Of a DNA stretch of 64,000 bases, positions 47,569 through 61,865 are shown one piece after another. The position numbers were made by a program, and so were the translations under genes. Position 1 is the first letter of the stretch, and each line of letters starts with the position of its first letter. The notes under the pieces are model-generated. The model did not search any database and was not told the origin of the DNA. It saw nothing but the letters and a program-made list of their open reading frames with translations. The DNA is taken from NCBI GenBank assembly GCA_028293625.1, contig JAQGOL010000035.1:310001-374000 (forward strand). Direction: 5' to 3'. The stretch comes from Chthoniobacteraceae bacterium (GTDB taxonomy: Bacteria; Verrucomicrobiota; Verrucomicrobiia; Chthoniobacterales; Chthoniobacteraceae).

Positions 47569-48411
47569 ATGAAGATTCTTCTGTTTTCTGAGCCTCAAGC
47601 GAACACGCACGCATGCGGGCAGCCAAGGCATCTCAAAACCTTTGCAACGACAATGGTTTTTGGATTCCTTGCTCTCTGCCGGCCGGCAAGCGCATTGCCT
47701 GTTTCACTGGGCGCTTCTCAAAGTTTTGCCATCTTGGGGGCTGCAACGATTACCAGCACAGGTGAGACGGTTGTAATTGGAGATCTTGGCGTGAGCCCGG
47801 GCAGCGCCATCACCGGATTTCCACTTGGAATAGTGGTGGATGGAGCAATGCACTCAAATGATGCACAAACTGTCCAGGCCCAGCAGGACGCCCTTGCCGC
47901 TTACAATATACTGGCCGGTGAGACGCCTTCCTCACTGCTGGACTATTCGGCAATCGATTTGGATGGCTTAACACTTACACCCGGAACCTACTATTTTAGC
48001 ACCGGCGCGCAGTTAAGCGGAACGCTTACGCTCGATCACAGATCCAATCCGGGTGGTGCATTTCATTTCCAGATTGGCAGCACCTTAAATACGGCGGTGG
48101 ACGCCCAGGTCATTATGCTGGGCGGCTCCGATAACGACGTATTCTGGCAGGTGGGTAGTTCGGCTACGATAGGTGGCGGCACAGAGTTTACAGGCAATAT
48201 CATTGCCCACTCCAGTATCACTTTCGGCACCGGCGCCAGTGTGATCAACGGAAGGGCCTTTGCTCTGAATGGAGCCATCACATTGGACAATAACACTATC
48301 AGTGCTGCTGCTGTGCCGGAGCCGGGGAACTGGATATTCGGGGCTTTGCTTTTAGGCTTGGCTTGCACCCGGACTTTCGCGCGCTCGCTGCAAGTGGCGG
48401 GCAAGGTCTGA
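47569..48411 (+). CDS. Ice-binding-like (DUF3494) secreted protein with PEP-CTERM tail
   Basis: A 280-residue protein. A signal helix (MVFGFLALCRPASALP) precedes a DUF3494 beta-solenoid: VSLGASQSFAILGAATITST, VIGDLGVSPGSAITGFP, LTLTPGTYYFSTGAQLSGTL, GGAFHFQIGSTLNT, VFWQVGSSATIGGGTEFTGN and SVINGRAFALNGAITLDNNT are the diagnostic motifs. The C-terminus is a PEP-CTERM signal (VPEPGNWIFGALLLGLA then RTFARS). DUF3494 proteins bind ice in psychrophiles but also occur as adhesins in mesophiles, so ice binding is not certain. The combination places it on the cell surface or in the matrix. It has its own promoter region. Confidence 0.9.
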   Translation: MKILLFSEPQANTHACGQPRHLKTFATTMVFGFLALCRPASALPVSLGASQSFAILGAATITSTGETVVIGDLGVSPGSAITGFPLGIVVDGAMHSNDAQTVQAQQDALAAYNILAGETPSSLLDYSAIDLDGLTLTPGTYYFSTGAQLSGTLTLDHRSNPGGAFHFQIGSTLNTAVDAQVIMLGGSDNDVFWQVGSSATIGGGTEFTGNIIAHSSITFGTGASVINGRAFALNGAITLDNNTISAAAVPEPGNWIFGALLLGLACTRTFARSLQVAGKV

Positions 48412-49942: not shown

Positions 49943-50349
49943 TGGTTATATGGGTGAGGTGGCCGGCTGGCGTCCGTATTAGCCTTCACACGTTATGGAC
50001 ACAACAAGGCTCTCGACGCATCGGACTGCGAAGTGAGGCGCGGGTGAGCCGTTGCAAACGTTGCGGCACCAAGATCATGGAATTGAATGCAGATGTGGCT
50101 TTTGCGCGATGCAGCCGCCTTACGACGTTTTCATAAGAAAATTGCTGAGGTGCGCCATTGAATGAATCAGGCGGCGTCACTTACGCTCGTTCTCCTTGAA
50201 CTTCTGCCATGAAAGGCGCGCGGTCTGCTTCAACCCGCCGCCCTACTAACCATGATCGTCTCGTATATTTCTGTCTTCCTTGCCGCGCCGAAGTCGCCGG
50301 CAAAAGGTTCTCGAGAGGTCTGCGAGCTGTGAAGAACGAGAGATCCGCC
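49943..50349. other. 407-bp spacer between P450 and the giant kinase
   Basis: The divergent spacer must hold the promoters of both genes, but no clear -10/-35 pair or strong hairpin is visible. A 30-codon frame from GTG 50044 to TAA 50136 begins MSRCKRCGTKIMEL, a zinc-ribbon-like CxxC start, yet has no second Cys pair of the right spacing and no family match, so it is not called. Confidence 0.5.
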
Positions 50350-53300
50350 ATGGCGGCAAGCTGGCTTTGCCGGCTCCTGGTCATTCTCTGTTTTGCCCAT
50401 CCAGCCGGGCTTACCGCGGAAGCGCCGGCGTCGCGGGTTATCACCGCCTATGCCCTTACCCCGGATGGCCCGCCCGTGATGCCCTCCGAACCGGCCGCGT
50501 GGACGCTTCTGGCTTCCAATGACGGCCAATCGTGGAAGGAATTGGATACGCAAAAGGAGCAAAGGTTCAAGCTTGGCCAGAGACGAGTCTTTTTCATTGA
50601 GAATCGTGAGGCCTACCGGATCTATCGCTTGCAGATTGATGCGAATGTCGCCGGGGAGCCTCACGGAACCAGTCTGGCTGAATTGGAGTTGAACGGCCCG
50701 GTCGTACGCGCGGGTCCCGGCCCCGATCTCCAGGCAATCATTACCTCGTCGCGTGAGCATCCTCTGGTTGGAGCTGCATGGAATGCATTTGATGGTGATA
50801 CCGGCAGCAAATGGGTCGACTTTGGCCAGTTCAAAAACGGCGGATGCTGGATCCAATGCGAATACGTGGCCGACTCGGGATTGTTGATCAAAAGCATCAA
50901 TCAACTGAAAATTTTCACCCGCTTGACGGCCGCAAGCACGCTCCTGGCTGAGAAGTTCCCTGAAATCATTTCCAAGCTCTCCGTTTCCGAGCCGGCGCGA
51001 AGCCTGACCGGATACGCGATCACCTCAGCCAACGATGATCCCGATCGCGACCCCCGCGATTGGCAACTGCTCGGCTCCAGTGACGGCGGCAAGCGGTGGG
51101 AAACGCTTGATACCCGGCAAAATGAACTCTTCTCCACGCGGTTTCAGCGCCGGGTTTTCATGCTCGCAAAGCCAGCCGGTTGCGCGCTTTACCGGCTGCA
51201 GATTGAAGGCAAGCCAAACGGGGCGTATGCAACGCAATTGGCGGAACTGGAACCCATTTACGCCACCACCTTGCGGCCGGATCGACGGTTTTCACTCATT
51301 GTGTCGGCCGAATCGGAGAATCCACCCATGGAGCGAACCGAGATGGCGTTTGACGGGGATTTTTCCTCGAAATGGCTGGCATTTCACGCTCCGCAAAGCC
51401 GCTCCCATTGGATCCAGTGGCAATCGCTGCCGGCGGTGGAAGGGCTCCCGCTGATCAACCTGCGTCAGCTCACGCATTTGATGAAGTCGAGCGCCGACAG
51501 ATCCTTTCAAATAGGCAAGCTATCGCGAACGTTGCTGGGCTACGCGCTTGTTTCCGCGGGCGACGCGCCTGAGCGCGATCCTCGCGACTGGCGGGTGCTC
51601 GGGTCCAACGATGGCGGAGTTACCTGGGAGACCCTCGATCTCCGTCGCGGCGAGATGTTTAAAGGGCGTCTTGAAAGGCGCGAGTTCACTTTAAAAAAAC
51701 CGGCACCCTGCGCGCTCATTCGCTTTCAGACAGACTCGGTGATGGATCCCGCGACGGCCAATGCGGTGCAACTGGCTGGGCTTCTGCCTCGGTATGCGCC
51801 CGATCCGGGCGAAGCTAAATTTTCCACGGTCGTTTGGGCCGAAGGCGATCATCCACCCGACCAAGGAGTCGAAAACCTATTTGCCGGCGACCTGAAAAAC
51901 AAGTGGCTCCATTTTAGCAAAAACTCAAATTGCGCGAGCTGGATACAATGGTTTTTTACCACCGCTGACAAACACCCGGTAGTTCGAGCCGATGCCGGGC
52001 CGGTCTTGCAACCGGCAATGCCGCGCGCCATCCAATTGCAAATCGAAGGGGTCGCAATCGCCGCGGATGGCGCCTCGCTTTATTTCCTCGATGAAAGCGG
52101 CTTCCAGACATTTCAACTTGAACCGCCGATCGCAGTGCCAACCGGCCAGCGGATCCGGATCAGCGGCCAGGTGCGATTTGACGGCGATCATCCCCATATT
52201 GTGAATCCGGAAATCAGCTCCGGGGCTGCCCTGGCAGAACTCGCCGTCTCAAACGAACCGTATCCCGAGTCGGAGTCGTTGCTCGCGTGCACCATGGAGG
52301 GAAAAGTCACCGCGTTTTCCAATGGACCGATTTATTCCACGGTGCAAATGGAGCTCAGGGGCGGGCACCGGGTGAAGGCGAAGATTTTGAATAATAAGAA
52401 TGGTCCCCAGCCGGTGTTTTCCAATTGCCAGCTGCGTGTGAGAGGGATTGCGGAGCCTGTGTTTAATGGAAAGGGGATCCGCGTCGCGGGCATCATATGG
52501 GTTGCCAGCCTCGATGACGTGCTGCTTTTGCCGCCATCGGAAGCACAGTGGAATCAATGGGAGGAGTATCCTTCCAGAAACCCTTTGGAGAAAATCCAGG
52601 AGGGCGAACTTGTGCGGATGACAGGCACGGTCCGCCAGCAAGACGCCAGCCAGCGTCTGATCGTGGAGGCGGGAACCGACCAGATCGTTGTTTATACAAA
52701 CAAGATGCTGCCGCCCGGTTCAATCGTGGAAGCAGCAGGCTTCCTGATCAAGGAAGGGCCGACAACGACATTGCGTCCCGGATATGCGCGACTGGCCCTG
52801 GAAAGGCCGCGTCCCGTCCAGCCGCCTATTGTATATGATGAGAATCATCCGGTCACCGAGATCCGGCAGATTCACGAAGTTATGAGGAGCCAGCCCGACC
52901 GGCCTTTTGCGGTCAAAGTGCGAGGCGTCATTACTTATATCGATCTTGGGCTGGCCGAATGGTACTTGCAGGATGGCCCTGATAGCATCGTGGTCCAGGA
53001 CCAACTCGCGGCGGGATTGAGCCCGTTTTTGCAGCAGGAAGGAATGTATGTGGAAGTCCAGGGCCGGGTATGGGCCAAACGCTGGGCCGGGGTCTCGCCC
53101 ACCGCGTTTGTTTCCGTTCTGGGGCGGGGTCAAATGCCGGAGCCGATCCGCCGTTCATGGGATCATCTCATGACCGGCAGGGACGAGGGGCGGTGGGTAC
53201 AGGTTGATGGCATCGTGACGGCGTTTGAAAAACAGCGCCTCACATTGAATGTGAGCGGAGGCCAGATCATCGCCTGGGTTAACGAGATTGATCCTGGCGT

Positions 53301-55140
53301 GCAGAATCGACTGCTTGGCAGCATCGTGCGGGTAAGCGGCGTCTGCCGTGCCGTGCGCAACGGACGAGGCCAGCAGCTCGGTGTGCGGCTGCTTGTCCCA
53401 TCGGCCGAGCAGGTGGAGATTTTAAAGGCCAGCCCGGGAAACCCGTTTGATGTGCCGATGCTGCCGGTTGGAAGCATCATGCGTGTTCAAGCCAGAAACA
53501 TCGGATTTACCATTCAACTCGTGAAAACCGCCGGCGTTGTCACCCATAAAAATATGCGGCAACTCTTTGTCCAGGATGGCGCCGACGCGCTCCGGGTCGT
53601 CACCCGCGAAGACTCCAGCGTGCAACCCGGAGATCAGGTGGAAGTGGTGGGTCTGGCTGAGGCCGACGGCTTGTCGCCCAAACTCGTTCAGGCGTGGGTG
53701 CGTAAGACCGGTCAATCAGCGCTGCCTGCCATGCATCCAATCGATTTGCATCACATGGATTCCTCGGTGGCCGGCATCACTCAGGATTCCACATTGGGCT
53801 CGATTGAAGCCACCTACCTGGGCAGAAGCGCCAATGAATTTCTCCAGATTCTCGAACTCCAGGATGGGAAGGAAAAGAACCCCTTTTACGCGTATCTTCC
53901 CCTTGCGCAGGAGGCACCCTTTGAGCTGCCTATTGGCAGCCGTGTCCGCGTAAGAGGCGTGTTCAAGGCGAAAATCGATACGGTGCCCGATTTCGGGCAG
54001 GTGGTAACCGCCTTTGAAATGTATCTGAATTCGCCGGCGGATATCACTCTCCTTCAACGCCCGCCCTGGTGGACCACGCGGCACACGTTATGGAGTGGCA
54101 GCGCGCTCGGGTCGATCCTCCTTGGCGCTTTGGCCTGGGCGGGACTGCTCCGCAAACAGGTGCGCCGGCGCACGCGTGAACTTGATGCCAAGATTATCGA
54201 GCAACAGCAGACTGAATGGGAACTTCAGGCTCAAATCGCCGAGGGCAAACAGATGGAGATTGAGATTGAGAAAACGCATCAGGAACTCCTTGACGCATCG
54301 CGTCAGGCGGGAATGGCCGAGATCGCCACCAACGTCCTACATAATGTTGGAAATGTGCTAAATAGCGTCAATATTTCATGCTCCGTCATCGAGTCCACTG
54401 TCCGTAAATCAAATATCGGCAGCGTGGCCAAAGTCAGTGAATTGCTGGTGAAAAATTCCGACAATTTGCCCGACTTTTTCAGCGGCGATCCGATCGGCAG
54501 GAAGCTGCCCGATTTTTTTGGAAAACTTGCAGCGCGGTTGGAAAAAGAGCGGACGGCTGTGCTGGGAGAGGTCGACTCGCTGGGCCGGAATATTGAGCAC
54601 ATCAAGGCGATTGTCGCTTTTCAGCAAAACTACGCCAAAGGGTTTCGTGTCGGAGAATCGTTGCCGCTGGCAGATGTCGTCGAGCACGCCCTGAAGATTA
54701 ATGCCGAAGCGCTCACCCGGGCCCGCATTGAAGTGGTCCGTGATTTTCAACCCGTGCCGCCAGTGACAATGGAAAGGCACAAGGTTTTGCAGATTCTCGT
54801 TAATTTGATTCGAAACGCCAATCACGCTCTTACTGATGCGGATCAAGCCGAATCACGAAAGCTTTTTGTCCGAGTCGTTGGAGAGAACGACCGCGTATTT
54901 GTCACTGTTCGGGATAACGGGATCGGCATTCCGTTGGAGAACCTGACCCGGATCTTCGCGCACGGTTTTACGACCAGGAAAGAAGGCCACGGCTTTGGCC
55001 TGCACAGCGGAGTGCTCGCCGCGTCTGAGATGGGTGGGCGGCTCACAGTGGAAAGCGGCGGGCCCGGAAAAGGGGCGGCATTCACACTCGAATTGCCGAT
55101 CCACTTTGAGGCAGCGCTGCCGCGGCCATCCGAAGGGTAA
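50350..55140 (+). CDS. Giant sensor histidine kinase with discoidin-like and OB-like repeats
   Basis: About 1596 residues from ATG 50350 (signal peptide WLCRLLVILCFAHPAGLTA; a GTG seven codons upstream is possible). The outer part has three discoidin-like repeats sharing RDPRDWxxLGSxDGG-x-WETLD and an R-F-x-RRVF strand, then about five OB-like beta repeats (VRMTGTVRQQ, VKVRGVITYID, VQVDGIVTAFEK, KTAGVVTHKN, VRVRGVFKAK). One membrane helix (about 1248-1268) and a coiled coil lead to the phospho-His H1331 in TNVLHNVGNVLNS and the ATPase (NLIRNANHAL, VRDNGIGIP, GHGFGLH). It is an orphan kinase with no regulator gene beside it. Probably it senses an extracellular glycan. Confidence 0.85.
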   Translation: MAASWLCRLLVILCFAHPAGLTAEAPASRVITAYALTPDGPPVMPSEPAAWTLLASNDGQSWKELDTQKEQRFKLGQRRVFFIENREAYRIYRLQIDANVAGEPHGTSLAELELNGPVVRAGPGPDLQAIITSSREHPLVGAAWNAFDGDTGSKWVDFGQFKNGGCWIQCEYVADSGLLIKSINQLKIFTRLTAASTLLAEKFPEIISKLSVSEPARSLTGYAITSANDDPDRDPRDWQLLGSSDGGKRWETLDTRQNELFSTRFQRRVFMLAKPAGCALYRLQIEGKPNGAYATQLAELEPIYATTLRPDRRFSLIVSAESENPPMERTEMAFDGDFSSKWLAFHAPQSRSHWIQWQSLPAVEGLPLINLRQLTHLMKSSADRSFQIGKLSRTLLGYALVSAGDAPERDPRDWRVLGSNDGGVTWETLDLRRGEMFKGRLERREFTLKKPAPCALIRFQTDSVMDPATANAVQLAGLLPRYAPDPGEAKFSTVVWAEGDHPPDQGVENLFAGDLKNKWLHFSKNSNCASWIQWFFTTADKHPVVRADAGPVLQPAMPRAIQLQIEGVAIAADGASLYFLDESGFQTFQLEPPIAVPTGQRIRISGQVRFDGDHPHIVNPEISSGAALAELAVSNEPYPESESLLACTMEGKVTAFSNGPIYSTVQMELRGGHRVKAKILNNKNGPQPVFSNCQLRVRGIAEPVFNGKGIRVAGIIWVASLDDVLLLPPSEAQWNQWEEYPSRNPLEKIQEGELVRMTGTVRQQDASQRLIVEAGTDQIVVYTNKMLPPGSIVEAAGFLIKEGPTTTLRPGYARLALERPRPVQPPIVYDENHPVTEIRQIHEVMRSQPDRPFAVKVRGVITYIDLGLAEWYLQDGPDSIVVQDQLAAGLSPFLQQEGMYVEVQGRVWAKRWAGVSPTAFVSVLGRGQMPEPIRRSWDHLMTGRDEGRWVQVDGIVTAFEKQRLTLNVSGGQIIAWVNEIDPGVQNRLLGSIVRVSGVCRAVRNGRGQQLGVRLLVPSAEQVEILKASPGNPFDVPMLPVGSIMRVQARNIGFTIQLVKTAGVVTHKNMRQLFVQDGADALRVVTREDSSVQPGDQVEVVGLAEADGLSPKLVQAWVRKTGQSALPAMHPIDLHHMDSSVAGITQDSTLGSIEATYLGRSANEFLQILELQDGKEKNPFYAYLPLAQEAPFELPIGSRVRVRGVFKAKIDTVPDFGQVVTAFEMYLNSPADITLLQRPPWWTTRHTLWSGSALGSILLGALAWAGLLRKQVRRRTRELDAKIIEQQQTEWELQAQIAEGKQMEIEIEKTHQELLDASRQAGMAEIATNVLHNVGNVLNSVNISCSVIESTVRKSNIGSVAKVSELLVKNSDNLPDFFSGDPIGRKLPDFFGKLAARLEKERTAVLGEVDSLGRNIEHIKAIVAFQQNYAKGFRVGESLPLADVVEHALKINAEALTRARIEVVRDFQPVPPVTMERHKVLQILVNLIRNANHALTDADQAESRKLFVRVVGENDRVFVTVRDNGIGIPLENLTRIFAHGFTTRKEGHGFGLHSGVLAASEMGGRLTVESGGPGKGAAFTLELPIHFEAALPRPSEG

Positions 55141-55279: not shown

Positions 55280-55828
55280 ATGGAACTAAACCCTAAATTG
55301 TTAGAGGCATTGATCGGGCATCGGAGCGAGCCTGAAAGCATTCTGGGGCTTTTAAAGGAGGCCGGCTTGGATTCGGCAAGGTTAAGCAAAATCAATTCAA
55401 CCGCCGACCCTGTTACTCCCTATTCGCGGGTGGTTTTGTCAGCGGCGCCGGGGTGCGAAATCATGTTGGCGCGGTGGACGCCGGAGCGAGTATGCGCCCC
55501 TCACGATCACGGAGTCTCCTCGGGATGGGTCTTCTATCTGGAACACGACTTCGAAGAGCGAAGTTACTCGTGGCAGGAGGGTGAGCTTGTTTCGGTGGGA
55601 ACCTTTTCCCATCGGGCCGGCACTTGTACGGAAGTCCGGAAGGAGGAGATCCATTCCTGCATGAGCAACGGCAGCGGATTAAGTCTGCATGTTTACTTTC
55701 CGCGGATTGAAAAAATGCGCGTTTACGATCTGAATGAACGGCGGACATTGGTTGTCGCCGACGATTGCGGGGCGTGGATTCCTGATCGGCCCGAACAACG
55801 CGTCGCGGAAATGGCATGGCCGGGATGA
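55280..55828 (+). CDS. Cysteine-dioxygenase-like cupin (thiol dioxygenase)
   Basis: A 182-residue cupin close to type I cysteine dioxygenase. The iron ligands correspond to H75 and H77 in CAPHDHGVSSGWVFYLEHD and H125 in EIHSCMSNG. The second-shell His/Tyr pair lies in GLSLHVYFPRIEKMRVYDL (H137, Y139), as in known thiol dioxygenases that oxidise a thiol to a sulfinic acid with O2. No Cys-Tyr crosslink cysteine is obvious, which is normal for bacterial members. It is the first of three overlapping genes: its TGA overlaps the ATG of the caspase-like methyltransferase as ATGA. The substrate may be cysteine, 3-mercaptopropionate or a thiol made by the operon. Confidence 0.85.
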   Translation: MELNPKLLEALIGHRSEPESILGLLKEAGLDSARLSKINSTADPVTPYSRVVLSAAPGCEIMLARWTPERVCAPHDHGVSSGWVFYLEHDFEERSYSWQEGELVSVGTFSHRAGTCTEVRKEEIHSCMSNGSGLSLHVYFPRIEKMRVYDLNERRTLVVADDCGAWIPDRPEQRVAEMAWPG

Positions 55829-57135
55829 CTGCCTGCATATTGATTCTCTACACGACGCTCTACCGGGAGGGCGGGGCGGAGTTTGAACTGGCTGCGTGTG
55901 AGCTGGAACGCGCCAGGCGCGCGGAGTTTCCAACCATGCCGGTTATCCGGAAAGCGGTTGAAAGCAAAAAGGATTTCATGTCGGAAATCAATTCGGTGGC
56001 GGGGCAATCGATGCGGATTTCCGAGCTTCATTTCATCGGCCATAGCGGAATGTATGGGATCATGTTCGGCACGACTTCGTGGCCGGAACAGTTCAGTCCG
56101 TTTGAATGGAAAAATATGAGCATCCCCTTTGCAGCCGATGGGAAAGCTTACTTTCATGCCTGCCGAACCGGCCGATGGTTCGCACCCTTCTTCGCACGCG
56201 TTTTCCAGGTAAAGGCATACGGCTATTTCTGGTATACGACCGTCTCCACGCAGGCCGACCGATTTGCATGGCGCGGAGTGCGGGCTCACGGCAATCCGAT
56301 TCATATTATTTCGGTGCCCGGCAAAAAATCGCATGGCCTGATTGGATCGATCAAAAAATACCTGTTCCGGCCGGATAGTTATCCGATGCTCGAATTTGTG
56401 CCGGTAAAGGAGGAGATCGACACCACTTATGACGGAGTTGCTTCCCTGTATGACGAGACCTTTGAGGACATCTCGGTGCGTGCCGACGAGTTGCGCTGGT
56501 TGCGCCGGCAGCTTTCCAAAACGTGCAACCCGAGGCTTCTGGATATAGGCTCTGGCACCGGTTCCTTTCTCCGTGCGATTGAGGATTTGGTTGATCGGGC
56601 TGACGGAGTCGATCTATCGGCGGGCATGGTGGCGCAGGCGCGAAAACGCTCGATTGAGGGCGGCAAGCTGAACTTCACCACGATTGATGGTCCGCGGCTT
56701 CCCTTTGCGGATGAGAGTTTCGATGTCGTGACTTCCATCTTGTCCTTTCGTTATCTCGACTGGGATCCGATCATCGCCGAAGTGCTGCGGGTTTTGAAAC
56801 CTGGCGGACGCTTGTTCATTATCGACATGGTGGCCGCTCCCGTGAAGTGGCGTCATTGGCCGCGCCTGCTCATTGACAAGTTGCGGCAGAGCCTTATGCA
56901 ACGAAAGCATCCTCACTATCGGCAGGCACTTCGTAAAATGGTCAGTGATCCCAGATGGAAAAAAATGCTCGAATACAATCCGATCCGCGCCGAGCACGAG
57001 ATGAAATGGTATCTGCAGAGCCGGTTTCCGGGCGGGCAATTGCAGGTTATTAATTACGGCTGGAACTCGCGGGTGCTCGCTTTCGCTTCACCGCCGCTTC
57101 ATGAGAAGAAAGTGGCGGCTCTTTCTTTCCCTTAA
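55825..57135 (+). CDS. Caspase-like N-terminal domain fused to class I SAM methyltransferase
   Basis: 436 residues from ATG 55825, which overlaps the cupin stop as ATGA (an ATG three codons earlier also exists). Residues 1-190 are not a standard methyltransferase part: a hydrophobic strand then a His in SELHFIGHSGMYGIMFG (H73), and 40 residues later a strand then a Cys in KAYFHACRTGRWFAPFF (C113), the spacing and order of the caspase/CHAT-type His-Cys dyad. Residues about 200-436 are a methyltransferase with LLDIGSGTGSFLRAI (238-252), GVDLSAGMV, LPFADESFDVVTS and LRVLKPGGRLFIID. The stop shares its last base with the racemase-like start. No characterised protein of this architecture is known to me. 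Confidence 0.75.
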   Translation: MTACILILYTTLYREGGAEFELAACELERARRAEFPTMPVIRKAVESKKDFMSEINSVAGQSMRISELHFIGHSGMYGIMFGTTSWPEQFSPFEWKNMSIPFAADGKAYFHACRTGRWFAPFFARVFQVKAYGYFWYTTVSTQADRFAWRGVRAHGNPIHIISVPGKKSHGLIGSIKKYLFRPDSYPMLEFVPVKEEIDTTYDGVASLYDETFEDISVRADELRWLRRQLSKTCNPRLLDIGSGTGSFLRAIEDLVDRADGVDLSAGMVAQARKRSIEGGKLNFTTIDGPRLPFADESFDVVTSILSFRYLDWDPIIAEVLRVLKPGGRLFIIDMVAAPVKWRHWPRLLIDKLRQSLMQRKHPHYRQALRKMVSDPRWKKMLEYNPIRAEHEMKWYLQSRFPGGQLQVINYGWNSRVLAFASPPLHEKKVAALSFP

Positions 57136-57917
57136 TGGCGATGATCGGAGTAATGGATTGGGGCATCGGCGGGCTGAGCGTCTATAAGGCACTCCGCGAC
57201 AAAAAACGCACTGCCGATGTGCTCTATTTTTCAGACTCGGGTTCGACTCCGTACGGCAAGCTATCCAAGGAGAAGTTGCGCGGGCGTTTCGTGGAGATAG
57301 CGGGTTACTTCCGCCAGCGTGAAGTAACGCAGGTCCTGGTCGCGTGCCATGCCGCGAGTTCAGCGGTGGAAGCGGATATAGAGGTCTTTGAAGGAGTTGC
57401 ATTCCACAGCATTATCCCGGCTGCTTTGCGCAGCGTGCAGCGAAGCCACGCGCGGCGGCTTGGAGTCATCGGCGGAGATTTTACCATTCAATCAAAAGTC
57501 TACGAACGCACCTTGGCGGGACTCGGCAAGCAGTTGGCGTTTTGCCCGGCCCAGCCGCTGTCGGCCTTCGTGGAGGCGGGCGAGCTTGAGTCCGAAGCAG
57601 TGGAAGCGGAAATCCGCCATTTGCTGGCCAAGCTGCATCCAATCGATTCGCTGCTGATAGCGTGCACGCATTATCCCGCCCTGACACCCATGTTCAGAAA
57701 AGTCGCCCCTAACCTGGAGCTTCTTGATCCAGGCGCCGATATGGCGGAGTCGGTGCGCGAAGAGGGCTCGAACTACTTTGAGTTTTTCACGACCGGAAAC
57801 CGAACCGGTTCGGCGCGCTCGGCGCAATTGGCGTTTGGAATCGAGATCCCTCCTCAAAAAAAACGAATCAGCGGCATAAATTCGCGGCCGGTTCGAACGC
57901 GGGGTTTTGGGATGTGA
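57135..57917 (+). CDS. Glutamate-racemase-like protein with altered substrate motifs
   Basis: A 260-residue Asp/Glu racemase-fold protein. Both catalytic cysteines are kept: C71 in VLVACHAASSAV and C177 in LLIACTHYPALTP, with H179. The MurI signatures are altered: the N-terminal FDSGVGG is MDWGIGG, and the ACNTAS motif is ACHAAS, positions that contact the substrate carboxylate and amine. The middle retains SDSGSTPYG and LGVIGGDFTIQS. It is translationally coupled to the upstream methyltransferase (1-base overlap). It could be a true MurI for cell-wall D-glutamate, but the changes and the operon suggest racemisation or a related reaction on another amino acid. The gene symbol is therefore withheld. 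Confidence 0.75.
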   Translation: MAMIGVMDWGIGGLSVYKALRDKKRTADVLYFSDSGSTPYGKLSKEKLRGRFVEIAGYFRQREVTQVLVACHAASSAVEADIEVFEGVAFHSIIPAALRSVQRSHARRLGVIGGDFTIQSKVYERTLAGLGKQLAFCPAQPLSAFVEAGELESEAVEAEIRHLLAKLHPIDSLLIACTHYPALTPMFRKVAPNLELLDPGADMAESVREEGSNYFEFFTTGNRTGSARSAQLAFGIEIPPQKKRISGINSRPVRTRGFGM

Positions 57918-57953: not shown

Positions 57954-58865
57954 TTGCCACGCTTTGGGACTGTGCAGACTGTCCCTTCAAGACCTCAATT
58001 TCTCGGCATCGGCGCGCAAAAAGCGGGCACCACGTGGCTCTGGGCGCAGCTGCAGCGGCATCCGAATGTCTGGATGCCGCCGCGCAAGGAGGTTCATTAT
58101 TTCGACCGCAACTTCCCGACCCCCAACTACCTGGGAGAGCCGCGGCTGCTGCGCCGGATTTTTGGCCGCGAGACGCATCACCGCGCCTGGCGGGAAATGA
58201 TGCAGGCCGACTTCCGACAGAGCTGGAAGGCAAAAGATCTCAAAGCACTCCGCTGGTATTCGCGATTCTACTTCGGCGCGCTGGACGACGACTGGTATCG
58301 CGCGCTTTTCCCCAAGGACGAGCATCTCATGTGCGGTGAGATCACGCCGGCCTATTCCATCCTCGCGGAGGAGGATGTGGCTCATATCGCTCGGCTTTTG
58401 CCAGAGCTCAAAATCATCCTGCTGCTGCGTAATCCGATCGATCGCGCCTGGTCGCAGATCCGTTTTGATTGGACCCGCGGGGCGCGTGCCGACATCACCA
58501 ACCTGGAGGAGATCAAAGCGTTTATCGATTCGCCCAAACAATCGTTGCGCAGCAGCTACTTGCGGATGCTTGAGATCTGGGGACGGCACTTCCCGCCGGA
58601 ACGCTTTCTGGTCGGTTTTTACGATGACATCACCACGCAACCGGCGCATTTGCTGGAGCGGGTGACACAATTTCTCGGACTCGAATCCGCGCCGGCGACC
58701 CCACAGGATCTCGGCCGCAAGGTGCATGCCTCCCGCGAAGCGCCGATGCCGCCCGAGATCCGCGCTTATCTTATTGAAAAATATGCGCCCGACCTTCGTC
58801 TGCTGGAAGAGCGTTTTGGCGCGCCGGTCTCCGAATGGCTCGCATCAGCGCAGGCAGCCAAATAG
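57954..58865 (+). CDS. Sulfotransferase (PAPS-dependent)
   Basis: About 303 residues. The 5'-phosphosulfate binding loop is LGIGAQKAGTTWLWAQLQ and the 3'-phosphate motif is LLLRNPIDRAWSQIRFDW; YFDRNF and RSSYLRMLEIWGRHFPPERF are further family segments. It would transfer sulfate from PAPS to a hydroxyl or amine, most likely on a surface glycan. The start is uncertain: a TTG at 57954 or a GTG at 57972, neither with a ribosome site. It begins 36 bp after the racemase-like gene and may belong to its transcript, or serve the glycan genes that converge on it from the right. Confidence 0.85.
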   Translation: MPRFGTVQTVPSRPQFLGIGAQKAGTTWLWAQLQRHPNVWMPPRKEVHYFDRNFPTPNYLGEPRLLRRIFGRETHHRAWREMMQADFRQSWKAKDLKALRWYSRFYFGALDDDWYRALFPKDEHLMCGEITPAYSILAEEDVAHIARLLPELKIILLLRNPIDRAWSQIRFDWTRGARADITNLEEIKAFIDSPKQSLRSSYLRMLEIWGRHFPPERFLVGFYDDITTQPAHLLERVTQFLGLESAPATPQDLGRKVHASREAPMPPEIRAYLIEKYAPDLRLLEERFGAPVSEWLASAQAAK

Positions 58866-58879
58866 TCCGCCCGGTTTGC

Positions 58880-59770
58880 TCAGGCATCGCCCAGCATCGC
58901 CCGGCAAACACGCAGGTTGTTTTTTGAGACTTTCGAAAACCAGAGTTTCGGCTCCGTGAGCCGCGCCAGCAAAGGGGCGCCAGGCACGCGCCATTTGCCG
59001 AGCCGGGCCGCCAATGCATCCCTGCGCCGGAGCGTCTCCCAATGTTTCATGGTGAATTGATAGGCGGCGATCTGCTCGGCGGCGGCATGGCGGCGCGCCA
59101 CGGAGAAGATTTCATCCCGGCGCGGCTCCGAGCCGTTACCCGACTTATGCGCCTCATGAAACCGGTAAGCGGAGAAGATTTCCGGGGACCGTATAAAGGT
59201 GCCGAGCGCGGCGGCGCGATTAAACCAATCCCAGTCAAACGCGTAACTCAGCGATTGATCGAGCGGGCCGGTTAATTCCCAAAGCCGGCGTGTCCAGAAT
59301 GCGCTCGGCTGGATGATATAACCGGTGAGTGCGAGCCGGGCGCGATCGTGCTGTTCGGGGCGAACCACTTTGGCCGCGCGCCCCTGATCCTGGAAAAAAA
59401 GGCAGCTGCCATAAACGAGCATCGATTCCTTGCCTTGCTCGGCAAAAAGCCGGCCGATTTTAAGAAGCGCCCCGGGAAGAAAAAAGTCGTCGCTATTGAT
59501 CCAGCAGAGGATGTCGCCGGTGGCGCGGGCAAACGCGGTATTGATGGCGGCGGATTGGCCGCCATCGCGTTCGGAAACCCAATACGCGATCTGCGACTCG
59601 TAGCGGCGGATGATTTCAACGCTCCCATCTTTGCTTCCGCCATCCATCACGATGTATTCCAGATTGGGATACTGCTGTCCGAGCACGCCCAGGATGGTCG
59701 CTTCCAGGAATTGGGCCTGATTAAAAGAGGGGGTCACCACGGTGATTCGTGGCAGGTTTGTGTCGTTCAT
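58880..59770 (-). CDS. Glycosyltransferase family 2
   Basis: A 296-residue GT2 enzyme. The N-terminal nucleotide-sugar domain has RITVVTPSFNQAQFLEATI, YIVMDGGSKDGSVEII and YWVSERDGGQSAAINTAFAR with the metal motif DILCWINSDDFFLPGAL (DD), all standard. It likely adds a sugar on the cytoplasmic side during glycan assembly. Its ATG overlaps the stop of the upstream GT4 gene by 4 bases. It is the last gene of a minus-strand run and lies tail-to-tail with the sulfotransferase, 14 bp apart. Confidence 0.9.
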   Translation of the reverse strand: MNDTNLPRITVVTPSFNQAQFLEATILGVLGQQYPNLEYIVMDGGSKDGSVEIIRRYESQIAYWVSERDGGQSAAINTAFARATGDILCWINSDDFFLPGALLKIGRLFAEQGKESMLVYGSCLFFQDQGRAAKVVRPEQHDRARLALTGYIIQPSAFWTRRLWELTGPLDQSLSYAFDWDWFNRAAALGTFIRSPEIFSAYRFHEAHKSGNGSEPRRDEIFSVARRHAAAEQIAAYQFTMKHWETLRRRDALAARLGKWRVPGAPLLARLTEPKLWFSKVSKNNLRVCRAMLGDA

Positions 59771-60951
59771 GGGGTGCGGGCGATCTCTAAAAAGCGCCGG
59801 CCAAAAGCCGCCTGCGCGAGGTGTGCCGCCTCACGGGCCGCCGCTTCTTTTTCAAGATCGGGGCCGGGGATTGCGGTTTCCCAAAGATGGGCAAGCAGCT
59901 CGGCGAGGCTTTCGGGGGAATGGCGATCAAAATAATGGGCGCCTGGCGGATTCTGTTCCTTATGCACATCGAGATCGGAGAGTGCCATCAGCTTGCCAAG
60001 GACGCGGGCATCTTCGACCACGGTGCTCCATCCTTCATACAGGGAAGGCTGCACGACGGCCAGGCTGCGGCGCATCAGCTGGATTTGTTCCTGCCGCGAG
60101 ATGAGCCCGAGCATGGAGACCTGAGCCGCCACGCCGTTTTCATGGAGCCGCTGAAGGATCACGTTGATGAAATTTTTGTCGCGAAAATCGGCCGGTTGCC
60201 CGGTGCAAACCACGTGCGGCCGGATTCCCCGGTGGCTTAAACGCTCCAGGGCGTCAAAGACCAGCATATGGTTTTTGTGCTGCCAGAGCTGGTTGCTGAC
60301 GAGGAAAAAACGGTCCGGCAAATGGTAACGCAGCCGCACTGCTTCCGGGTCTGCCTCATACCAGGCCGGGGCTGGTGAAGTGCAAAATCGCAGCACCTCC
60401 GCGCGCGCCGGCGATCCCGGGTAAAATGTGTGGAATTTGGCAGCCGCTGACTCGCTGCTGAACACAATGGAGCGCGCGTCCCTGGCAAGAAGGGCGATGC
60501 CGCGGTCGCGTTTCGCAATCTCGCGCTGCGCAAATAACTCGGGCAATTCGCGGTGTTGGAAATCGGGAATCCATCCGGCCCAACGGCACGGCGAGAGTTG
60601 CGAGCCGAGCGGAAGCGAAACTCCGAGGTTGTATTCGTTGTCGTAGGTAAACGGATAAGCGAATCCGATCCGTGAGCCCCTGACGGCGGCGGCCAGCGCG
60701 CGGTTCCCGATTTTCAAATAGCGGCCCACGGCACCGAAGCGTCGCGGCGGCAGTTGGATGAGCTCGCGCAACTCAGGCAATTCCTGTTTCCAGGTGGAAT
60801 CGAGCGCATGCCCGCTAATCAGGGAGACTTCAAATTTCTCCCCTTTTTCCTGCGCCGCCACCCGAAGCGCGTGCGCGAGGTTTTTGATGTATTCCGAGCC
60901 GCCCATCCAACCCGCGCCGCCTTGCATGATCAATCCAATATGAAGGCTCAT
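59767..60951 (-). CDS. Glycosyltransferase family 4
   Basis: About 394 residues from ATG 60951, which overlaps the upstream epimerase stop by 4 bases; the frame is open 37 codons further but those lie inside the epimerase gene. The N-terminus LHIGLIMQGGAGWMGGSEYI is a GT4 acceptor-domain start. The C-terminal domain has FLVSNQLWQHKNHMLVFDAL, HVVCTGQPADFRDKNF and the donor-binding E-x7-E region PSLYEGWSTVVEDARVLGK. The role is sugar addition to a surface polysaccharide, paired with the coupled GT2 downstream. The sugar type is unknown. Confidence 0.9.
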   Translation of the reverse strand: MSLHIGLIMQGGAGWMGGSEYIKNLAHALRVAAQEKGEKFEVSLISGHALDSTWKQELPELRELIQLPPRRFGAVGRYLKIGNRALAAAVRGSRIGFAYPFTYDNEYNLGVSLPLGSQLSPCRWAGWIPDFQHRELPELFAQREIAKRDRGIALLARDARSIVFSSESAAAKFHTFYPGSPARAEVLRFCTSPAPAWYEADPEAVRLRYHLPDRFFLVSNQLWQHKNHMLVFDALERLSHRGIRPHVVCTGQPADFRDKNFINVILQRLHENGVAAQVSMLGLISRQEQIQLMRRSLAVVQPSLYEGWSTVVEDARVLGKLMALSDLDVHKEQNPPGAHYFDRHSPESLAELLAHLWETAIPGPDLEKEAAAREAAHLAQAAFGRRFLEIARTP

Positions 60952-61865
60952 ACGCTGGCCAGCTCCGCTGAAGACCATGTGGCGACACTCCGTACCCCTT
61001 TTTCCAGGGAGATCGAGGGAGCAAAACCGAGCGCGGCAATCCGGCCAATATCGGCCCGCCAATATAAGGGATTGCCAGGCGTCGCGGCGCCGTCAAAGCG
61101 CGGTCTGGTTGAAGAACCGAGCGCATCAAGCAGCAGGGAGGAGAGCTCCTGGATGGTTGCTTCCCGGCCGCTGGCAACGTTGTAGATTTCGCCCCGGCAT
61201 GGCGCTTCCGAGGCGATGCAAAGGAGTGCACGGCCAATGTCGGTGGCGTGAATAAAATCGCGGCTTTCCCGGCCGGTGCCACGAAGCCGGAGTTCGCCGG
61301 TGGTGAGCACGCGCTCGCAGATGTCCCAGATTACCTGGCGGCGCAGCCCGGGGCCGTAAGCGGAAAAAATGCGGAGCGCCGCGGTCGGCAGTCCGAAGAT
61401 GGTGGAAAATTCTTCGCAGAGCAATTCGCACTGCCGCTTGTGATAACCGTACGGGGAAAGGGGCGCGACACGATGGGTTTCAGCTACCGGCAGCGATTCC
61501 GGGTTTCCGTAAACGGCCGCGCTTGAAAGGAAAAGAAACCGGCATGCGAGCGCCTCGCGCCGGAGCGCTTCAAGGATCTCGAAGGTCAGCACCGTGTTAT
61601 CGCGAAAATCGGAAGCCGGATCGTTCATGGAAAGCGGGACCGAGGCGCGTCCGGCGCAATGGATGCAAACATCGGGTTGTTGGGAGCGGAGAAGTTCATT
61701 GAATCCGGAAGAGGGAAGCGCCAGCCGGACGTAGCCGGCCCCCTGCGGCGCATTTTCGGGAGGAACGACATCGACACCCAGGATGCGCCATTCTTTCCGG
61801 GCAAACTCGCGTGCCACGTAGCGTCCCAGAAAGCCGGCAACCCCCGTAATCAGGACGGTCTTCAG
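60948..61865 (-). CDS. NAD-dependent epimerase/dehydratase, probable CTG start
   Basis: About 305 residues of an extended short-chain dehydrogenase acting on nucleotide sugars. The Rossmann motif TGVAGFLG (residues 7-14) is encoded upstream of the first ATG/GTG/TTG-type start (a GTG at 61817), so a start there would delete the NAD-binding loop. The only sensible start is CTG at 61865, six bases after a perfect GGAGGT (61872-61877), giving MKTVLITGVAGFLGRYVA. Downstream, FLFLSSAAVYGNP and PYGYHKRQCELL (YxxxK) complete the catalytic site. It overlaps the GT4 start by 4 bases. Product: an epimerised, dehydrated or reduced NDP-sugar for the glycan. Confidence 0.85.
   Translation of the reverse strand: MKTVLITGVAGFLGRYVAREFARKEWRILGVDVVPPENAPQGAGYVRLALPSSGFNELLRSQQPDVCIHCAGRASVPLSMNDPASDFRDNTVLTFEILEALRREALACRFLFLSSAAVYGNPESLPVAETHRVAPLSPYGYHKRQCELLCEEFSTIFGLPTAALRIFSAYGPGLRRQVIWDICERVLTTGELRLRGTGRESRDFIHATDIGRALLCIASEAPCRGEIYNVASGREATIQELSSLLLDALGSSTRPRFDGAATPGNPLYWRADIGRIAALGFAPSISLEKGVRSVATWSSAELASV

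Follow-up and report, generated by a model that had tools for sequence, protein, structure and literature searches.

A caspase-like/methyltransferase fusion protein and a glutamate racemase paralogue: very probably one undescribed two-gene enzyme unit

What holds a cupin, a methyltransferase fusion and a glutamate racemase homologue together in one short stretch of a chthoniobacterial genome, and what might they do in common? The question is raised by positions 55280-57917 of the window, by which we mean the whole 64,000-nucleotide stretch that was analysed, from a Chthoniobacteraceae bacterium (contig JAQGOL010000035.1). Three open reading frames lie there on the + strand: a cysteine-dioxygenase-like cupin of the Arg type (55280..55828, 182 aa), recognised by Pfam CDO_I and its active-site residues; a predicted caspase-like domain fused to a class I SAM methyltransferase, hereafter CASMT (55825..57135, 436 aa as counted from the ATG inside the ATGA overlap, a second in-frame ATG lying upstream at 55816); and a glutamate-racemase paralogue, hereafter RAC (57135..57917, 260 aa). 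An earlier note on this DNA had described three genes overlapping by 4 and 1 bases behind a good promoter candidate. The ORF coordinates bear out both overlaps, ATGA between cupin and CASMT and TAATG between CASMT and RAC; the promoter candidate did not hold up, a consensus scan of the 139 bases upstream of 55280 having returned no site.

Several other genes surround the three. On the same strand, a sulfotransferase-family gene (57954-58865) starts 36 bases past RAC and may be on the RAC transcript; it was not found at the corresponding loci of two related genomes (G013 and G028). Just upstream, also on the same strand, 50209-55140 encodes a very large histidine-kinase-type protein (1643 aa) that weakly matches F5/8 type C and OB-fold. 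The window also contains an ice-binding-like protein (47569-48411; PF11999, E 1.6e-54), a cytochrome P450 (48545-49942, - strand) and, at 58880-61817 on the - strand, two glycosyltransferases and an NAD-dependent epimerase/dehydratase, likely a surface-sugar cluster. A P450 with 38% identity to that of the window lies near a fusion relic of genome G042 (L036 10070-11467), possibly by chance.

The conserved unit is made of two genes, CASMT and RAC. A search of relatives returned the full-length fusion in genomes G013, G028 and G080 at 79, 78 and 54% identity, and an alignment of four fusions, scanned against one genome per species (84,980 species), gave 44 loci, or 42 homologous loci after removal of two generic methyltransferases (L079, L081); a contig scan with RAC alone as query gave no matches. 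The 42 loci belong to Verrucomicrobiota, Acidobacteriota (mostly Blastocatellia/Pyrinomonadaceae), Bacteroidota (mostly Flavobacteriales) and one unplaced bacterium (L041), nearly all of them in metagenome-assembled or uncultured genomes, and grouping in the CASMT tree follows phylum. RAC lies directly 3' of CASMT on the same strand at every fetched locus where the contig continues (41/41), as it does in the window; at the 42nd, L041, the contig ends 66 bases past the fusion. The distance from CASMT to the RAC start is mostly 0-130 bases, reaching about 700 at two loci. The unit is rare in wider samples, being present in 14/396 acidobacterial and 1/395 Bacteroidota genomes (each count including the seed genome).

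Presence and absence were compared in 119 genomes from the order of an acidobacterial member (G204), using one profile of the CASMT N-terminal domain and one of RAC. The former matches in 32 genomes; the latter gives 31 matches of at least 301 bits, separated by a clean gap from MurI-type matches of at most 134 bits. Both genes are found in 30 genomes and neither in 86, with RAC only in one and CASMT only in two, both as fragments (Fisher p 1e-24, uncorrected for kinship). In the sole RAC-only genome, G270, there is no fusion and RAC adjoins a radical SAM gene, which directly precedes it (L175 4270-6967). As for the CASMT-only genomes, the fusion of G267 is cut by the contig end, and that of G263 has a break immediately ahead of the catalytic Cys (L173 4539-4973), a RAC-clade gene not being found in that genome. 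In the relics of G042 (L176 1316-1730, L036 8359-8865), a RAC fragment of 26 residues comes after a truncated fusion; as G263 and G042 illustrate, decay takes away both genes. The divergence of CASMT and that of RAC are also coupled, with a distance correlation of 0.93 (r, 38 loci) and a partial correlation of 0.83 once the distance between the corresponding MurI proteins, used as a stand-in for kinship, is removed (17 loci; 0/2000 permutations as high). Given the co-occurrence, the shared relics and the distance correlations, the presence, loss and divergence of the two genes go together. CASMT and RAC very probably constitute one undescribed enzyme unit.

Does the cupin belong to it? The gene product scores 27.4 bits against CDO_I (cut-off 23) and its active site is intact: the 3-His iron site reported in the earlier note is there (His75, His77 and His125), together with Arg50 and Ser135-His137-Tyr139, so that it has the three His, the carboxylate-site Arg and the Ser-His-Tyr that mark Arg-type cysteine dioxygenases (PMC8050391). 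This intact site would suit an obligate three-enzyme pathway in which a sulfur-containing molecule undergoes thiol oxidation, methylation and epimerisation, as would the position of the gene, 4 bases from or overlapping CASMT in the window, L038 and L041, which represent two separate lineages. However, no such gene was found within the fetched stretches of all other CASMT loci, and in G028 (same contig as L039; L039/L034, around 2280-2400) an in-frame internal deletion has left a dioxygenase gene of 32 codons. The remnant still ends in ATGA over the fusion start, the flanks of the locus are common to G013 (L038), and CASMT and RAC still show the mark of purifying selection, with dN/dS at about 0.1 and 0.27 for L033 compared with L034. 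We consider the obligate pathway quite improbable; the dioxygenase-like cupin is an occasional accessory and not a core component. The sulfur-oxidation step of the small pathway that the earlier note had drawn from the three genes is not supported. The test it had set, co-location across phyla, comes out very strongly for the fusion and the racemase homologue, which stay together in three phyla; the cupin accompanies CASMT at three loci only.

The idea of a third conserved partner gene was rejected, since the neighbourhood varies from one phylum to another: the recurrence of DUF58-like, ABC transporter and META-like genes reflects acidobacterial synteny only, and the genes around the unit are diverse and point to no particular pathway. 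At five acidobacterial loci (L045, L050, L063, L067 and L072), the unit is preceded by a gene for a ~583-aa radical SAM protein that looks like a B12-type enzyme, as is the lone RAC of G270.

The N-terminal domain of CASMT (about residues 1-196, 55825..56412) falls in no Pfam family. When the domain (~190 residues) was searched for 23 members, no Pfam match of note, Peptidase C14 included, and no solved-structure match were obtained, and a fold search with the whole of CASMT gave a list filled by methyltransferase matches. Judged by the C14 profile, CASMT would not be placed in a named peptidase family. Conservation is strict: the His73/Cys113 pair that had been singled out in the earlier note (codons 56041..56043 and 56161..56163) is invariant in 40/40 sequences, as are Tyr9-Thr10-Thr11, Tyr13-Arg14, Gly72 before His73, Arg114 directly after Cys113, and Arg117-Trp-Phe-Ala; the residue that follows His73 is Ser or Ala. 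A model built on a 40-sequence alignment (mean pLDDT 88, compared with 45 for a 4-sequence alignment) shows the order strand, helix, strand, helix, strand-His, short strands, helix, strand-Cys, helix, strand, in which predicted strand 3 (63-71) leads to His73 and predicted strand 4 (102-111) to Cys113. In clan CD peptidases, the catalytic His and Cys stand at the ends of these same two strands (PMC4357240). When CASMT is aligned by hhalign with C14 peptidases from related genomes, EFHFVGHS falls on the catalytic His motif and HCCRSA on the catalytic Cys motif; the score, 26.7, exceeds those of all 200 column shuffles (maximum 22.1) and the probability of 9% makes this a weak match. Based on the model, a caspase-type fold is likely for this domain. 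DUF4347 (PF14252) was considered as the closest relative and rejected, hhalign against one sequence giving 2.5% with the dyad not aligned. Elsewhere in the genome of the window, away from the unit, there are two Peptidase_C14 (orthocaspase-like) matches (G000:C37:77318-77998 and G000:C40:52715-53296).

The methyltransferase domain (residues 200-427, 56422..57105) is more conventional. It matches Methyltransf_11 (E 8.7e-22) and superimposes on CmoA 4gek (Z 17.9, rmsd 3.8 over 211 residues), and motif I, D-I-G-x-G-x-G at residues 240-246, already recognised in the earlier note, is kept across CASMT sequences; CASMT thus has both the motif and the Rossmann-type fold of class I SAM methyltransferases. 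Its scores stay far under the equivalog cut-offs for UbiE (64.7 against 216) and BioC (52 against 184.95).

Other readings of the unit were weighed. Caspases carry an S1-site Arg after strand 1, and CASMT has its invariant Arg14 after predicted strand 1, a placement from which we would guess at an acidic ligand. Arg114 and Arg117 beside Cys113 would suit such a ligand as well, and RAC stems from an acidic-amino-acid racemase, so that the unit could be imagined to work in damage repair, removing or mending Asp/Glu-type residues of proteins or peptides that have turned into D- or iso-forms: the caspase-like domain would recognise acidic residues, the methyltransferase would activate the carboxyl and RAC would correct the stereocentre. 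Yet the methyltransferase is UbiE/Methyltransf_11-like, with PCMT a weak match (E 0.12), and a patchy presence within one order, 32/119 genomes, would be odd for housekeeping repair; we regard this possibility as improbable. The same patchiness, taken with a caspase-like domain, might instead recall a defence or conflict system in which a protease and a modifying enzyme act against phage or competitors. Against this, the only part of CASMT that PADLOC recognises is its generic methyltransferase domain (mad2, residues 223-333), and RAC has no PADLOC match; the viral contigs searched contained no homologues, the plasmids searched contained none covering 80% of CASMT (the matches being generic methyltransferases), and a racemase of metabolism would be unusual in a defence system. 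All of this makes a defence role very unlikely.

RAC, for its part, forms a clade apart from MurI. Its best solved relative is glutamate racemase 1b73 (E 2.9e-32), and both catalytic Cys, Cys71 (codon 57345..57347) and Cys177 (57663..57665, within the A-C-T-H-Y-P motif), are kept in 42/42 sequences. This, together with the shared fold, might indicate a second racemase, for glutamate or another amino acid, that supplies a free D-amino acid and is linked to an unrelated methyltransferase by co-regulation. However, RAC scores 110.9 bits against TIGR00067, below the cut-off of 146.65, whereas its genome has a separate murI that exceeds the cut-off with 238.8 bits, and such a murI is found above the cut-off in 22/22 genomes tested; and in the tree a single branch divides RAC from MurI (support 100/99, in 200/200 bootstrap trees). 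The cut-off of the cysteate racemase profile CuyB (NF052483) is not reached by RAC either (30.8 against 190 bits). Compared with MurI of the same genomes, Ser is replaced by Trp or Tyr at position 9 and Thr by Ala or Ser at position 73 in 41/41 RAC sequences, MurI keeping Ser and Thr in 18/18. Further changes are Gly to Ser (33), Ala to Gly (36) and Thr to Gly (114); Arg116 is gained in 39/41, and Gln140, Ser143 and Ala176 are present, while Asp8, Pro-Tyr-Gly, Cys71, Glu147 and Cys177-Thr-His are kept. Helicobacter pylori MurI uses Asp7, Ser8, Cys70 and Thr72 to deprotonate D-glutamate; for L-glutamate it uses Glu150, Cys181, Thr182 and His183 (PMC6927343). The L-glutamate set has an intact counterpart in RAC (Glu147, Cys177, Thr178, His179); two of the four residues of the D-glutamate set are replaced, Ser by Trp9 (codon 57159..57161) and Thr by Ala73, hence the RAC substrate should not be free glutamate bound in the MurI way. 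With, in addition, its near-perfect co-occurrence with CASMT, a RAC that merely supplies free D-amino acid appears distinctly unlikely. Judged by clade and residues, RAC is a MurI paralogue and not the cell-wall enzyme, even though it is probably annotated 'glutamate racemase' in genomes that have the pair. The altered glutamate racemase homologue of the earlier note is thus upheld by the separate clade, the changed residues and the normal murI; of the two motifs it had pointed out, DWG in place of DSG is family-wide (Trp in 40/42, Tyr in 2/42) and ACHAAS is local, since CH-A/S-AS is confined to the window and the two relatives closest to it, all others having Asn at the His position, mostly as CNAAS.

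We tentatively favour, at somewhat under even chances, a function in which CASMT and RAC tailor the same substrate; this is most likely a short peptide or a molecule derived from an amino acid. A shared substrate is the simplest reading because the enzymes are kept, lost and changed together, with the Cys pair, motif I and the His/Cys dyad intact; jointly acting genes may still work on different molecules. In the order that we infer, RAC, with a binding site remodelled on the D-glutamate side and intact on the L-glutamate side, would remove a proton from a carbon and return it via Cys71 and Cys177, which would amount to epimerisation; CASMT would bind and possibly cleave the same substrate with the dyad of its predicted caspase-type fold and would transfer a methyl group to it from SAM. 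In some Verrucomicrobiota, the cysteine-dioxygenase-like enzyme of the same operon would probably feed in or remove an oxidised thiol, the core being independent of it. A more specific and rather doubtful version is that a two-protein system present in at least three phyla jointly epimerises and methylates, and perhaps cleaves, a residue of a peptide or protein; if true, it would be a bacterial route to methylated D-residues that needs neither radical SAM epimerases nor NRPS. In any case, the pair is a compact and testable example of a MurI paralogue that has moved away from cell-wall synthesis, with residue changes in RAC from which the remodelled half of the active site can be predicted.

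Each component enzyme comes from a known superfamily; what is new is the unit formed by the fusion and the changed racemase through their linkage. No paper on the pair was found in the open-access literature, where a caspase-like domain fused to a methyltransferase and tightly tied to a second enzyme, an unusual arrangement, has no described counterpart. Comparison with known systems is possible part by part. (i), The CASMT model resembles clan CD (caspases and the metacaspases/orthocaspases of C14) in strand/helix order, in the placement of His and Cys and in the small strands after the His, and the profile alignment matches both dyad members to the catalytic motifs of C14; it differs in having His-Ser and not the usual His-Gly, in lacking a Pfam C14 match and in being always fused to a methyltransferase. 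(ii), With class I SAM methyltransferases (CmoA, CouO/NovO, UbiE-like) it shares motif I and the CmoA-type fold match, an invariant S-F-R-Y-L-D-W-D-P block and the N-terminal fusion being its own. (iii), RAC has the fold family, both catalytic Cys, Asp8, Pro-Tyr-Gly, Glu147 and Thr178-His179 of MurI/RacE (TIGR00067), and is set apart by Trp/Tyr9, Ala/Ser73, Gly114, Arg116, Gln140, Ser143 and Ala176, by its own clade under the family cut-off and by the normal murI beside it. (iv), The cupin resembles the bacterial Arg-type cysteine dioxygenases 3eqe and 4qm8 in its three His, the Arg at the Tyr-x-Arg position and the Ser-His-Tyr; unlike a part of the core unit, it is linked to CASMT in three loci only. 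For the pair as a whole, a precedent is found in oxepinamide biosynthesis, where OpaE, of the same racemase superfamily as RAC, epimerises a residue of a peptide product that OpaF then methylates (PMC12661438). While OpaE and OpaF are fungal, belong to an NRPS context and are without a caspase-like domain, and the racemase branch is that of allantoin/hydantoin racemases, the likeness, one of principle only, lies in the use of an Asp/Glu-racemase-family epimerase and a methyltransferase on one product.
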